Positions 40,615 to 54,946 of a stretch of 64,000 nt of DNA are shown piece after piece. Position 1 is the stretch's first letter. The number at the start of each line of letters is the position of its first letter. The stretch is from Daucus carota subsp. sativus (lineage: Eukaryota; Streptophyta; Magnoliopsida; Apiales; Apiaceae), in contig NC_030387.2 in the NCBI RefSeq assembly GCF_001625215.2, forward strand, positions 37,099,606 to 37,163,605, read 5' to 3'. The translations under genes and the position numbers were made by a program. The notes under the pieces are model-generated. The model was given only the letters and a program-made list of their open reading frames with translations, had not been told where the DNA came from and ran no database searches.

Positions 40615-41711
40615 CTCTTGCAAATTTGAGAAGAGGAGCAAACAGGAGGTTGTCAAGCAAGCAACTTCTTCGGCTCCTGTTTCTGTATCAATACGAAGAG
40701 CATGCCACACAAATTGCTCCTGATTCTTTTGCTCTTGCTAAAACACATCTCTAGTCAGGATCAAAATTTGCAACTGCAGAACTACTTGTACACACCACTA
40801 CTGATTGCAGAAACAACTAGCTAACTACTACTGTCAAATGTAAATACAAAATGTTTGTTTATATCTTATGTATAACATATTTAATAAAAATATAGCCCAA
40901 GTTGAGATTAAATTTTACATTTAAGCCCCAGTTATAATCTGTAGAAGGAATTTTCCTTCCGACTGCAGATATAAGTTCCTTGGTTGGCAGCTGTCAGGGT
41001 AGCGTTTTCACTGACACGTATAGGCCTCGGACATAGCTCCTATGTATTACGCTTATGTTAGCAAATATCTTCACAAGAACATACCTTCCGTTCTTACCTC
41101 ACACACATATTTGCTAAGAAAATTTGCTGCACACACAAACTTATCAGTCAGTGTCACAACTCACAAATGGTTTCTTTACTATATAGCCTCAGATGGACTG
41201 ACAGCTATTTCCTGTTAATTTTGTAATTAAATCAAAAAAAAAAAAAAAGTGATGCAGTCAACTACTAAATAGACAAAGCAAGTTATAGAATCTGGCCATC
41301 AGTAACTGAATGCTAAGACAAAAAACTGGAAACTGCGGAATATTCAACAGAATCATTTCAGCCAAGACACCTCTAGAGCAGTTCTTCACTTATACTTTTC
41401 CTTGCAACTTGAATCTTGATAGCGATGTCAATCTAATCGCCCAATCATCATAGAACATCTGTATATCAGTATATGGTGATGAACATAATGAAAATGAACA
41501 CGGATATTTCCAAGTGAAGTCCTCTTAACTTCCTTGAACTGGGAAGTATGCTCATTCAACAACTCGTTTCCCACTGACACGACTAGGCCACGGACATGGC
41601 TCAATATATACTGGTGTTGCATACATTAGCTAACACCTTCATAAGAACATACCTTCCATTCTTACCTCACACAATTATTAGCTGAAACTTTTCTGCAGGC
41701 ACAAAATTAAC
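40615..41711. other. Spacer with duplicated DC1 upstream flank
   Basis: Two related blocks lie here, about 40380-41160 and 41280-41717. Shared words include AAGAACATACCTTCC and TTCTTACCTCACACA, and each is followed by a TTAGCTGAA/TTGCTAAG-like stretch. The right block runs into the DC1 start codon, so the left block looks like the leftover 5' flank of a lost tandem DC1 copy. No coding part remains with it. Confidence 0.6.
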
Positions 41712-42629
41712 ATGTTCCCAAGGAGCCACTTCATGCATCAGGGTCATCCCCTGCTACAAGGTATTAACACCGAAGGATACCTTTGTGGTGGCTGCAAAAC
41801 CAGTGGCTATGGTCTGAATTTCGGGTGCACGCCCTGCAATTTTCATATGCACGAATTTTGCAGCAATTGCCCGAAAATACTATCCTCCTTTTTGCACCCA
41901 GGACACCCTTTAAGCCTCACGATTAGTAGCCCTCAAAATACCGCGCCTCCTGGGATTTGTGATGTGTGTGAAGATACTGTTGAGGGTTTATATTACTGCT
42001 GTCAGACTTGTCATTTCAATGTGCATCCACTCTGCACTCAGTTTCCCCGGTCTTTACCTCGTCCTCATGCAGTTCATTCTCTCCACCATCTGATGTTCCA
42101 AAAGCCTTATAAAGACGCTCCCTGTCACGTCTGTGGAGCCGTCTGCAACTCCTGGAATTGGAGGTATAGGTGCGGACACTGTGATGGTTTCGATGTCCAT
42201 CTGCAGTGTCTGGCAAAACCACATAATAAAATCACCAGGCCTCAACCGCCTTATAGGCCCCTTTTTGCAAATGTTCAAACAACTTCACCGTATGGCGGAG
42301 TCCCCCATGGCATATATGCACATCAGCCGAACAACTTGTACGGCCAAATGCCTGTTGGCGCACCTTTAAATATGAATTCATCTATCGTGTACAATCCGGA
42401 CCATCCTTTTAATGGAGTGCCTTGCAATACAAATACGTGTAGTACGTGCAACCAGGCACCTTTTCACTCGAATTCACAGCACACGCATATTCACCAAGCT
42501 CCGGCACAAGCTGAGGCTGCCCCGGCTCAAGGTCAAGGACGTCGCAGACTAGGCCGCGAAATTTTTCATATCCTCACTTCTGTGACAAATGGAGTGGTTT
42601 CCAGTTTACTTGCTGATGCTATATCCTGA
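41712..42629 (+). CDS. DC1-domain Cys/His-rich protein
   Basis: A single exon of 305 residues. Three Cys/His-rich C1-like (DC1) modules can be read: residues about 6-50 (HQGHPLL, CGGCKTSG, CTPCNFHMHEFC), 62-109 (HPGHPLS, CDVCEDTVEGLYYCC, CHFNVHPLC) and 119-165 (HSLHHLM, CHVCGAVC, CGHCDGFDVHLQC). The last 140 residues are low-complexity, rich in Pro, Asn, Gln and Ala, with a final amphipathic stretch GREIFHILTSVTNGVVSSLL. DC1 proteins occur only in plants and are often stress-induced; some bind lipids or nucleic acid. No catalytic activity is known. The spacing of the zinc ligands is intact. The start is preceded by the duplicated flank described at 40615-41711. Confidence 0.92.
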   Translation: MFPRSHFMHQGHPLLQGINTEGYLCGGCKTSGYGLNFGCTPCNFHMHEFCSNCPKILSSFLHPGHPLSLTISSPQNTAPPGICDVCEDTVEGLYYCCQTCHFNVHPLCTQFPRSLPRPHAVHSLHHLMFQKPYKDAPCHVCGAVCNSWNWRYRCGHCDGFDVHLQCLAKPHNKITRPQPPYRPLFANVQTTSPYGGVPHGIYAHQPNNLYGQMPVGAPLNMNSSIVYNPDHPFNGVPCNTNTCSTCNQAPFHSNSQHTHIHQAPAQAEAAPAQGQGRRRLGREIFHILTSVTNGVVSSLLADAIS

Positions 42630-49781: not shown

Positions 49782-50945
49782 TAACTCGTAATTTAGTTCC
49801 TCGACCATGGACCAAAATTTGTTAGTAGTTCCATATACGAAACTGCATTGTTTGGATAAGCTTATTTATGAGTCCAAACTACTAGTGATTATTCACAAAA
49901 ACAATCTTGCTCCTCGTAAATGACTAAACACGTAACGAGTAGATTCAGCAAAAAAACAATCGAGGAAACGATTGTAACAAACTTAGGTCAAAGAAAAACA
50001 CAATTGGTGGTATGGCATGATGGGGAAGTTAGAAGTAAAGAAACAATGGGCAGGATGTCATAGTTGAGTAAAAGTTAGTGCATTACATTTTGTCTGCCTT
50101 TATTTGGTTGGGTGGAAGTGGAACGTTTCGTTAATTTTACACTTTTGCTTAATTTGTCAATAAGAAAACAACTAAACAAGTCAAATATTTAAACAATAAA
50201 TAAGTCAGAGAGAACAGAATTTCATTTCGTTCAGAATGCAAATACCACTTGTGTTCTGCAACAACATTTTCTCGTTTGATAGGAGAGAATCACTAAAACA
50301 ACACTACATATTACGGGAAGTTCAATAATGTCCTAACAAATGTCCGTTTTAAATCTTCTCATCCATCTTTCAAATTTTTTGAACATGTAGGGTCGGGAAA
50401 CAAAAATGGCCATTGAGCCAGAAGCTCAGTGCAATGCCAAGTCATGCTCAACAGCTATTGTTCCGCTTCTTTCCATCCAGCATTTGCAAGCATCTACAGA
50501 CTACAAACATAATGATACTCCTCATCAAAGAAAATAAGGATATTGCTCTTAACCACATCATCAAATCATCCTCCTGCATAACACATGTCCTGCAGCTCAT
50601 CATTTTTTGTAGACAAATACATCTTTCGAGTAAAATTATCAATCGCATTGTATCACCAATTCCACGGAATCTAGAAAAAAATATTCAAAGCAGTCTGAAC
50701 ATCAGCACATGAACTCCAATTCAGATTCTCGCCACCACAAAGAGATAGTTTTGCAAGTTCAACATTTCTTTAAAGCAGATAATCCTTGGAACTACCCCAC
50801 AAATAAGCAGGACACAGGAGTCAAAATTGCTTGCTACAATTACAACCTTCAATTACCATTTTCCTTTTAAAAGATTTAAAAGCAAAAATATATAAAGCAA
50901 GACTAAGATTATCATCAGAAAATCATATAGAGCACACAAGTGGAT

Positions 50946-51077
50946 GATATAGGTGGTGTTTCCAGGATGAAATGACATTGAAATAGACATTTATCAGGAT
51001 GACCACTCTTCGCTTTTGCGTCCAAGCCATTATACCTAGGGAAACCAATTTTATTCCCCAGAATTGGTAAAGGACGC
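50946..51077 (-). ncRNA. Structured element D, copy 1 (H/ACA-like)
   Basis: Two hairpins on the minus strand: the first closed by GCGTCC/GGACGC, the second by GTGGT/ACCAC with an internal loop (CATCCTGAT opposite CATCCTGGAA), then ATATCA. Hairpin-hinge-hairpin-tail is the H/ACA plan, but the H box is not convincing and the tail has ATA in place of ACA. Stems are kept in copy 2 with a wobble change. Confidence 0.4.
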
Positions 51078-51115
51078 ATAACTATAAATTATTAATACCA
51101 ATTAAACTGAAGGAA

Positions 51116-51212
51116 TGCTCAGTGGAAGGAGAAGTTTATATCTGAGATTGTGGCAAGACCATTGAGTTCCGTCCACTGCCATATACGTAGAGAAATCTAT
51201 CAACATCAGCAG
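51116..51212 (-). ncRNA. Box C/D snoRNA A, copy 1 (18S rRNA guide)
   Basis: C box CTGATGT (51203-51209), D box CTGA (51119-51122), and a short closing stem TGC/GCA. The guide before the D box, ACTTCTCCTTCC, pairs over 12 bases with GGAAGGAGAAGT near the 3' end of plant 18S rRNA (rRNA text from memory). Copy 2 pairs over 15. Confidence 0.7.
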
Positions 51213-51345
51213 ATGTACAGGGAGTCAGGGACTGATATACACTTTTGACCAAAACATGGGAGAGGCCATTCTGCTAGAAAATGTAGGTCACAAACCCTAT
51301 ACAACTGCAACCATATAATTGACGACTTACATATATAATGAACAA

Positions 51346-51433
51346 GGGCTTCAGTGTGTGTAACAATCAGATCATGGATGTAATTATCTCACTGAAATCC
51401 GCTAAGATATTTGAAAATTATCATCACAAGCCC
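51346..51433 (-). ncRNA. Box C/D snoRNA B, copy 1 (double 25S rRNA guide)
   Basis: Stem GGGCT/AGCCC closes an 88-base RNA with C box GTGATGA (51421-51427) and D box CTGA (51351-51354). The D guide TTGTTACACAC and an upstream guide CTTAGCGGATTTC match neighbouring stretches of 25S rRNA, which I recall as GAAATCCGCTAAG followed by GAGTGTGTAACAA. Two guides against adjacent rRNA make the call strong. The D' box is weak (CAGT). Confidence 0.85.
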
Positions 51434-51451
51434 AAATTTCCTACAGAAAAA

Positions 51452-51531
51452 GCAGATATGTGACATGTGTTTTAGATCTGGGAATTAAACCCAGATCAGA
51501 AACCGTGGTCCACATAAGCCTCATCAGTGCA
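51452..51531 (-). ncRNA. Decayed copy of box C/D snoRNA C
   Basis: A good C box CTGATGA (51521-51527) and the internal TTTCTGA are kept, but the D-box half and its CCCTTGGCTGT guide, present in copy 2, are gone. The internal guide differs too (GGACCACGG in place of GGACTAGAG). A small hairpin, GATCTGGG with CCCAGATC, has taken its place. Likely non-functional, or retargeted. Confidence 0.5.
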
Positions 51532-52522
51532 TCAATAAATCTCTAAACACTAAAACATGATATGTAAGACTGTTAAACACTTGCAAAATACACTAAAACT
51601 CAACTAAAACAAAAGAAACAAAAAAACAGCAACTGTATTTACCCGAGAAGCAAAATCAACAGGAGAAGATAAACCTTTAGTGCCACGCGTGCTGTCACGT
51701 ATGGAAAAGAACTCGCCACAATTTTCAATTACCATAAAAAAATTGGTTCACAAGTGAGATTCATTTCTTCAATTTTCTCATCGAGATTTTTCTTACACAG
51801 GCTGCCATAAGTAACTTGTTCCATCACAGCTTCTCAACTAACATACAGTTCTTAGGTCGATCTTCTATAGCTTTCAGCAAAAAGCATACAGCCACTTCCA
51901 ATCCCTCATTCAGATCATCATCACCAGCTCCAATTCATTATAATCTGAGCGTTTGGCGATAACATAGGATCAGTGACAAAGATTGCTGAGGCTCAGACAC
52001 TTGTGGGTACAACAATAGTCTGAACAACAAAAGTTGTTGTGGTCTGTGTGAGGCGAAGTCGTGCTAATTTCTTTATAGAATCAATGAGCAGCTCAAGTTC
52101 GAAAAAAGTATATTAGTCCATCAATTAGGCATTCCAAGTAATATAATCCTCTCTAATATCTCACCAAAGAACCTCCTTGCATAGCCCAAGTCCCAATCTG
52201 CAATAGGCACTAGAATGGTGATCAACTGGTCATCCTAGCACATCTATTTCAGATCTTTTATCGAATGCATGTCTTGCACTGTTAATTCTACCCAAATCTG
52301 TAGTAAAAACAAATCAAACCAGCCCGAAAAATTAACGTGAGAGGTAAACACATTTCCCCAAAAGCACAGACTACTTCAAATTACACAATTTTTTCCCAAA
52401 AATCCTGGTATGTTACCAATGTCACAGTGCAGGACATTTAATTTTAAATTCTTTAACAATCATAGAAAATTGATCACAATTTGTTAATAGTTATAAAACA
52501 ACTAAAATCCACATGTAATTAA

Positions 52523-52658
52523 GATGATATAGGTGGCATTTCCAGGATAAAATGACATCGATATCGTACATTCATCAGGATGACCACTCTTAACTCTCGC
52601 GTCCAAGCCATTATACCTAAGGAAACAAAATTCATTCCCTAGAATTGGTAAAGGACGC
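52523..52658 (-). ncRNA. Structured element D, copy 2 (H/ACA-like)
   Basis: The same two-hairpin plan as copy 1. GCGTCC/GGACGC is unchanged; the inner stem TAGGGAA/TTCCTTA replaces TGGGGAA/TTCCCTA with pairing kept; the second hairpin has GTGGT/GCCAC. Kept pairing despite base changes suggests selection on structure. Confidence 0.42.
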
Positions 52659-52698
52659 CCAAAACACCAACAACAAACACAACTTAAATTCGAATAAT

Positions 52699-52805
52699 CC
52701 GCTCAGTGGAAGGAGAAGTCGTTTAATAGCGGGATCACGGCAAGACCATCAAGCCTTGTCCACTACCCTAACACACCAAATAGGTGCTTAGCCTCATCAC
52801 AGCAG
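52699..52805 (-). ncRNA. Box C/D snoRNA A, copy 2 (18S rRNA guide)
   Basis: C box GTGATGA (52794-52800), D box CTGA (52703-52706), closing stem CTGC/GCGG. Guide ACGACTTCTCCTTCC (52708-52722) pairs over 15 bases with GGAAGGAGAAGTCGT in the 3' part of plant 18S rRNA. An inner AGTGGAC could pair with nearby GTCCACT of the 18S, but only over 7 bases. Confidence 0.82.
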
Positions 52806-52854
52806 CTATTCTGATCAAAATTCAAATACATGTTAATATAAAAATTCGCAAGAG

Positions 52855-52941
52855 GGGCTTCAGTGTGTGTAACAATCAGATCATAGATGTAATAATCTCA
52901 CTGAAATCCGCTAAGATATTTATAATTTATCATCATAAGCC
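52855..52941 (-). ncRNA. Box C/D snoRNA B, copy 2 (double 25S rRNA guide)
   Basis: C box ATGATGA (52930-52936), D box CTGA (52860-52863), stem GGCT/AGCC. Both 25S guides of copy 1 (CTTAGCGGATTTC and TTGTTACACAC) are unchanged while the rest varies, so both copies look functional. Confidence 0.85.
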
Positions 52942-52986
52942 ACTAATTTTAAACAAAAAAAATTACACACACAAATTCAGACAAGT

Positions 52987-53087
52987 TATGCTCAGACAGC
53001 CAAGGGGTTGTCTTCAGAAACTGGGGGATTAAAATTAAACCCACCAGATTCAGAAACTCTAGTCCACATAAGCCTCGTCAATGCATA
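52987..53087 (-). ncRNA. Box C/D snoRNA C, copy 2 (double 25S rRNA guide)
   Basis: Stem TATGC/GCATA, D box CTGA (52992-52995), and a less typical C box TTGACGA. The D guide CCCTTGGCTGT pairs with ACAGCCAAGGG of 25S rRNA. Before an internal CTGA, GGACTAGAGT pairs with ACTCTAGTCC, which in 25S lies some tens of bases further on. By the D+5 rule the D guide points to the C of ACAGC. I recall yeast snR64 acting at this place, which is not verified here. Confidence 0.75.
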
Positions 53088-53247
53088 CGTTAATTAATTT
53101 AAAACATAAACATAATCATAAGAAATTGTACTAAAACTATGTTGTACTTATCAGATACAGCATAAACTAGAATGAATTATAAGAAGAGAAACAGTGGAGA
53201 CGTGATGCTTTAAACATGAAATTAAATTGATGGGTAGGGGAGGGTGA

Positions 53248-53337
53248 TTTATATAAAGAGGATGGGATAGAGTGTGAGGTTTATCTAGGGTTTTAGATAA
53301 TTTGATACCCGTTCATGGGCTTTCTTACCTCTGGGCT
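53248..53337 (-). promoter_or_regulatory. snoRNA cluster promoter: site II, telo-box, TATA
   Basis: On the minus strand, in order: two AGCCCA site II motifs (53332-53337 and 53316-53321), a telo-box AAACCCTAG (53285-53293) and a TATA box TTTATATAAA (53248-53257). Site II plus telo-box is the usual promoter of plant ribosomal-protein and snoRNA genes. Transcription should begin near 53220. Confidence 0.75.
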
Positions 53338-54946
53338 CTGTCTATGAAATTACACTGGCTTGTAGTTACTTGTAACTTGTAAGTAGTTGTATGATTGAAA
53401 CGTATTTGTTTTAATATATTTTTTATAAGTATGTTATTTAATATGTTAGAAAAGTTTTTTATCGTGAAACCCGTAAAAAGACTAACTAAGAAAATGATCT
53501 GAAGTGATATATTTTAATAATGTTTATATATGATTTAATTATAATAAAAAGATCCGTTAAGTTTAAATACCGACCGGCCAAATTCTTAATGTTTTGATTT
53601 TGTACTTATAATATAGGTTTGATTTGTCATTTCAATTTTTGAGTGACGAAACAAGAATAATAATTTTCCGACAGGAGGTTATTAGTATTTTTATCATAAT
53701 CTAGGCTCCCATTTCAAAAAAGAAAAATTACCGTGTAATAAGAATTTGGAAAACAAAAGACAAGTTAGAGAAAAATTATAGTTGATTCTCTTATTATAAT
53801 GATGTTTTAACTTATTTTGTCAATTGAGAAAACGTGTTTTTTTTTTCTATCGTAGCTTATTTACGTATTCTTGAGAAATTTACCACGTATATTTGAACGT
53901 GCTACCAATTATACACATTTTTATGATCGAAACTTTATCAAAAAAACATACTTCAGAAATGTATTGGTTATCCTGGAGCAACCGGAGGTGCCAAAAAAAT
54001 GTGAAAGTGTGATGTGTGATCCTAGAGCCCTTTGGGACACGGGGATTAGTATTTTTTTATGATTTAGCAATATTAGCGTCCTAAGATTAGCACAATTGCA
54101 TATTCTACCATATGATTTATGCAATCTGGATTTTCTAGTGACTTCCCTTAATGGCTCCATTGTTATACAAACAGAAGAGTCAATTTATAAGAACAGACTG
54201 CAGTATGCTTAACCTTAACATCGACTATGTTCTGGTGTCCTGATCATTAAGAGATTCAGTAAAAGTTGTGATAGCACTTCTTTAAAGGAAATCACAATTC
54301 ACAAGCTTATTTTCGAGAACAACTCCTCAAAGTGAATTTGGTTTCCTCTGCTGCAGTGAATAAGATGCGTGTACTATCTATATCCTTATGCACCTCAAAG
54401 TGAATTTAGGCTCGAGACCATCATCTAGTTAGCAGCAACTCTAAGCAGCTTCATTTCTTGTTCTAGGATCCACACTTTTCATAACTTCTTCAAATTGCAC
54501 ACCCCAAAAACTCATATTATGTTTGATGTATTTGAACAAGTTGTAATTATACAACAGATGTATAAAAGAAACATTCAAAAAGTATTTCCAGCAGATTCTA
54601 TGAAACTGGATCCCGAGGTTCAACTTATGATGCTAAAATATGTCAAGGGATTTCTTTTGAGACGGAGCCATGCAAGTATGCAACTAGATATCATACTTTT
54701 TTATTTGCAGACATTCAGACAACAGACAGAAACTAGTGTGTTACTTAAATTTATTTTTTGTTTTTATCGATAAGTTTGTTACTCTTATTTACGTGCGAGG
54801 AATTTGACAGAACAGAAGAAAAGATTACTATAGTTCATTCTATCCATCCTACAGCCGAAGCCCTTAAAAATGTCAGATGTAAAAGAGAAAAAAGAAGATT
54901 ACAAAGCCGCAGCTAATTAGGAAGCCAAACTTCTGAACCTTGGCTT
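53338..54946. other. Spacer between snoRNA promoter and ATP synthase gene
   Basis: AT-rich DNA with no firm gene. A short minus-strand stretch near 54430-54490 (FEEVMKSVDPRTRNEAA then stop) looks like a C-terminal exon, but no partner exons were found. The last 150-200 bases should be the ATP synthase 3' untranslated region. Confidence 0.45.

Follow-up and report, generated by a model that had tools for sequence, protein, structure and literature searches.

Searching the window, a stretch of 64,000 nucleotides from the carrot genome, against Rfam yielded five matches above the family cut-offs (E-values of 1.4 × 10−16 to 1.6 × 10−12). All five lie inside positions 53337-50943 and consist of two copies of snoR11, two of snoR80 and one Z152. 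A permissive search added two matches that score below their cut-offs, a Z157 (E-value of 4 × 10−10) and a second Z152 (E-value of 9.5 × 10−4), and detected no other Rfam family in positions 49800-54000 at E-values up to 1. The seven matches are closely spaced and all on the minus strand. In the direction of that strand, the elements are ordered Z157/R69/R10, snoR11/Z151, Z152/R70/R12 and snoR80, after which the same four are repeated (Table 1). We refer to the two sets as units A and B, and to the copies by the suffixes a and b. Judging by their names, RF00333, RF00349, RF00350 and RF01224 are plant families. All four were matched over their full length in unit A, as were the snoR11, Z152 and snoR80 families in unit B. 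Z157a and Z152b score below the cut-offs.

Table 1. Promoter motifs and snoRNA elements of the carrot locus, with positions counted from the first base of the window.
Feature	Positions	Strand	Evidence
Two site II elements (AGCCCA on the minus strand)	53337-53332 and 53321-53316	-	sequence, pattern list
Telo-box AAACCCTA	53293-53286	-	pattern search
TATA element TATATAAA	53255-53248	-	sequence
Z157/R69/R10 box C/D, unit A (Arabidopsis SnoR37 by target)	53090-52984	-	RF00333, 54.6 bits (cut-off 55)
snoR11/Z151 box C/D, unit A (SnoR22 by target)	52942-52855	-	RF00349, 90.2 bits
Z152/R70/R12 box C/D, unit A (SnoR23 by target)	52806-52698	-	RF00350, 74.5 bits
snoR80 H/ACA, unit A, with lower stem (52658-52653) beyond the Rfam match	52658-52525	-	RF01224, 97.5 bits at 52649-52525 (cut-off 45); two-hairpin fold
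Z157 5' remnant, unit B	51532-51496	-	repeat, BLAST 45/54; seen solely as repeat
snoR11/Z151, unit B	51433-51346	-	RF00349, 91.3 bits
Z152, unit B, degenerate	51213-51114	-	RF00350, 34.6 bits (cut-off 50)
snoR80 H/ACA, unit B, including lower stem (51077-51072)	51077-50945	-	RF01224, 96.6 bits at 51068-50945 (cut-off 45); fold

A reading made from the sequence only had expected standard gene finders to leave this region blank. Rfam at default cut-offs nevertheless detects five of the eight elements, and all four families are already there, so routine annotation of non-coding RNAs would not miss the locus. In the adjoining stretch 50942-50401 we identified no element. A protein-coding reading of the region was discarded, as Pfam gave no match at an E-value of 0.01 for the 109-residue frame at 50383-50712.

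Among the box C/D copies, Z157a, snoR11a, Z152a and snoR11b each have a C box, a D box and a stem at their ends. The latter three have an exact C box (RTGATGA), a CTGA and a stem of four to five pairs. Z157a has its D box at 52995, its D' box at 53053 and a terminal stem, and its C box, TTGACGA (53081-53075), is two bases off. Neither Z157b nor Z152b retains the full set of boxes and guides. Z157b keeps TGATGA and has lost its D box and guides, while Z152b keeps a 12-base D guide, has a changed D' and offers ATGTTGA (51206-51200), one base off, as the best reading of its C box. The two Z157 copies thus fail in complementary ways, with guides kept and the C box weakened at 53090-52984, and TGATGA kept and the guides gone at 51532-51496. 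Where at least five box C/D RNAs had been proposed from the sequence, four copies are well supported and the remaining two are degenerate.

As guide targets we used non-plant eukaryotic rRNA found in assemblies filed as prokaryotes; in the species-representative genome collection, L007, L008, L011, L012 and L013 are eukaryotic rDNA in assemblies filed as bacteria. Eight of 11 guides matched this rRNA over 9-15 contiguous bases, 0-3 nucleotides from a D or D' box. The earlier claim that guides lie directly before D or D' boxes is supported by these eight, against the non-plant rRNA used. Among the box guides of Z157a, snoR11a, Z152a and snoR11b, seven of eight matched over 9-15 bases, the exception being the D' guide of Z152a. 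No match in the fetched eukaryotic rRNA was found for that guide, for the Z157b D' guide or for the guide of an alternative D box in snoR11a. The D and D' guides of Z157a match the large-subunit (LSU) rRNA of L013 over 11 and 9 bases, respectively, those of both snoR11 copies match over 11 bases each, and the D guides of Z152a and Z152b match small-subunit (SSU) rRNA over 15 and 12, respectively. The snoR11 D guide was matched in all four LSU sequences and its D' guide (11 bases) in two, the Z152 guide in two of four SSU sequences, and the Z157 guides in one of four LSU sequences, two of the other three being incomplete.

To put these matches into perspective, we counted them beside all CTGA sites. 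A guide of at least 11 bases accompanied 5 of 26 sites on the minus strand of the region, versus 9 of 414 outside it on both strands (Fisher p = 0.0007). The sequence-only reading had set its threshold at a match of at least 10 bases next to a D box. Such matches do occur near the D boxes, with 7 of 26 sites in the region (two of them in the linker) reaching that length, but so do 28 of 414 sites outside. A 10-base match alone is therefore weak, and it is the family matches that carry the identification. The frequency of these outside sites is also what could be put forward for the view that guides and boxes are chance patterns and that no snoRNAs are present. We regard this as practically negligible: the five above-cut-off Rfam matches, in an order that occurs twice, are decisive against it.

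A scan that required a C box, a D box, a stem and an rRNA guide together returned 11 lines on the minus strand of the region, several per known snoRNA. The plus strand of the region yielded three lines, 50 Markov controls averaged about 2.2 (range 0-9), and both strands of the remaining window gave 41. Z157a was missed because of its weakened C box. The three lines that fall outside the RNAs named by Rfam or miss their boxes (C boxes at 53119, 51924 and 50765) are at chance level, and no further snoRNA was kept from the linkers. Elsewhere in the window, positions 40482-40405 on the minus strand resemble a box C/D RNA, with an exact C box, a CTGA and a six-pair stem that includes G-U pairs. This candidate has a 12-base match to one LSU sequence, three bases before the D box, a length that occurs by chance, and no Rfam match at gathering scores.

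Target nucleotides were predicted by the fifth-base rule and numbered on working sequences of Arabidopsis 18S and part of 25S rRNA, which were checked against Table 1 of PMC8053127. The working 18S sequence agrees with all 35 of the 18S sites in that table. For 25S, anchoring on an assumed length of 3375 fits just 8 of 32 listed sites and was rejected; it had given C2355 and U2411. A single offset fitted on a shortened stretch agrees with 30 of 30 sites, the next best offset with 12 of 21; G3292 and U3301 lie beyond this stretch and were dropped from the fit. In this numbering, the Z157a guides point to 25S C2366 and U2422, and the Z152 guide to 18S A1758. For snoR11, the predicted targets of the two guides are an A and a U, at a distance of 15 bases in each of the four LSU sequences. 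By this spacing and base identity, rather than by numbering, they coincide with 25S A1263 and U1278.

In the Arabidopsis table, C2366 and U2422 are assigned to SnoR37, A1263 and U1278 to SnoR22, and 18S A1758 to SnoR23 (PMC8053127). The five 2'-O-methylations assigned to these three RNAs thus coincide with the carrot predictions, a correspondence by target site. Arabidopsis SnoR10 was also considered as the counterpart of Z157 and discarded, as the sites listed for it, U2651 and G2652, do not fit. The SnoR10 of that table is hence not the RNA labelled Z157/R69/R10 in Rfam.

The two structured elements that had been noted from the sequence are, by inference, most likely the two copies of the H/ACA RNA snoR80. 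Exact H (motif ANANNA) and ACA boxes are found in neither copy. In the Rfam alignment, both have AUA where ACA is expected and an H box that lacks the last A at the aligned place. When we compared 12 variants of the pseudouridylation pocket with six fetched non-plant rRNAs, no convincing fit emerged, the best result being a single partial match in one SSU sequence.

Upstream of the snoRNAs, the stretch 53337-53248 contains a pair of site II elements together with a Telo-box and a TATA element, as found in TeloSII promoters. All three motifs of the ribosome-biogenesis promoter claimed for the minus strand were thereby located. On the plus strand the site II elements read TGGGCY, starting at 53316 and 53332. 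The window contains six Telo-boxes, and the one at this promoter is alone in having a site II within 100 bp. In 200 Markov-shuffled windows, a Telo-box with at least two site II elements within 100 bp never occurred, and one with at least one site II occurred in 30, by a clustering criterion that was picked after the site had been seen. A bacterial promoter and terminator scan gave counts at shuffle level and is irrelevant to a plant. The upstream neighbour on the same strand is a gene resembling the F1 ATP synthase beta subunit, whose last matched frame ends at about 55113 (Pfam); exons of a subunit of the mitochondrial type span 57674-55113.

Units A and B are tandem copies, with 1509-1581 bases between corresponding elements. 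Gapped BLAST identity between them is 89% for snoR11, 78% for the block from Z152 to snoR80 and 83% for the start of Z157, whereas the linkers show no similarity comparable to that of the snoRNA blocks in either the repeat search or BLAST. An exact 21-base match in the comparison of the units arose only because the slices used for it overlap. Outside the region, BLAST gave no match to it in the window. The Rfam scores of snoR11 and snoR80 are similar in the two units. Unit B therefore keeps a sound snoR11 and snoR80, while its Z157 and Z152 are being lost.

Taken together, we interpret positions 53337-50943 of the minus strand as a plant snoRNA polycistron with a TeloSII-type promoter, a set of four snoRNAs and a tandem copy of that set, to which we assign a probability of about 0.93. 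We favour this reading because of the Rfam matches, the conservation that extends over the snoRNAs but not the linkers, the fit of the guides and the promoter motifs, of a type described for plant snoRNA polycistrons (PMC4660826), and because predicted and published modification sites agree and a rice cluster has the same core. The proposal of a snoRNA cluster with its own promoter, made from the sequence, is supported by the family matches and the Telo-box, site II and TATA motifs. The partial decay of unit B and the damaged C box of Z157a could also be taken to mean that both units form a dead duplicate that has fallen out of transcription and use, with working copies elsewhere in the genome. 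Its promoter motifs are intact, however, and both snoR11 and both snoR80 score 90-97 bits with guides kept, which makes this very unlikely.

If the locus is a polycistron, its promoter would drive a single precursor carrying Z157 (SnoR37), snoR11 (SnoR22), Z152 (SnoR23) and snoR80, followed by the tandem set; this common precursor is assumed to span the roughly 1-kb linker that separates the units (52524-51533). Each RNA would then be freed by endonuclease cuts and exonuclease trimming, as in the known plant pathway. The box C/D RNAs would direct 2'-O-methylation to 25S C2366, U2422, A1263 and U1278 and to 18S A1758 (Arabidopsis numbers), and snoR80 would guide a pseudouridylation. The length of the linker would also fit a promoter that serves unit A only, with unit B separate or silent and outside any common precursor. 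The motif search revealed no Telo-box with a nearby site II for unit B: the other Telo-box in the region (plus strand, 51292), tried as a second promoter, lacks a site II at a distance of up to 100 bp. Yet snoR11b and snoR80b are well preserved, suggesting expression, and we consider a promoter restricted to unit A rather unlikely, though less so than a dead locus.

The locus resembles clusters described in other plants. In plants, snoRNA precursors are generally polycistronic and mature through trimming and cuts of the RNase III type, and snoR37 is among the families conserved across land plants (PMC5122169). The same source describes rice snoRNA cluster 20, snoR22a-snoR23-snoR22b, as conserved in some other plants. 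With snoR11 as SnoR22 and Z152 as SnoR23, a link made through target sites and not by comparison with the rice sequence, both loci have two snoR22 copies around snoR23. The text on the rice cluster names neither snoR37 nor snoR80, whereas the carrot locus repeats a whole four-member unit. The promoter arrangement is shared with Arabidopsis TeloSII genes, where a Telo-box, site II and TATA precede clustered snoRNAs; the description consulted does not name the carrot set of snoRNAs as a single cluster (PMC4660826). The full eight-element order was not met in the literature searched, and we do not claim it as a new arrangement.

A polycistronic organisation is usual for the snoRNA genes of plants, and the locus is a real but ordinary further example. 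It is useful mainly as annotation, bringing four established snoRNA families together with their promoter at one locus. As a duplicated cluster it shows some members decaying and others kept, and leaves the knowledge of snoRNA genes unchanged. The linker between the units (about 52524-51533) might, instead of being discarded as spacer, be retained as a long non-coding RNA whose ends are protected by snoRNPs, with snoR80a upstream and snoR11b downstream. Such a plant sno-lncRNA would have been born of a duplicated snoRNA cluster. The sole precedent is the description of Arabidopsis lncRNAs with snoRNA domains (PMC9175010), and we consider this even less likely than a dead locus.

Other parts of the window encode proteins. 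Pfam searches identified a PADRE domain protein at 48670-48149 on the minus strand (E-value of 6 × 10−34) and a C1_2 (DC1-type) domain protein at 41682-42626 on the plus strand (E-value of 8 × 10−20). Two Sina-type zinc finger proteins are located on the minus strand at 13948-13286 and 19218-18571.
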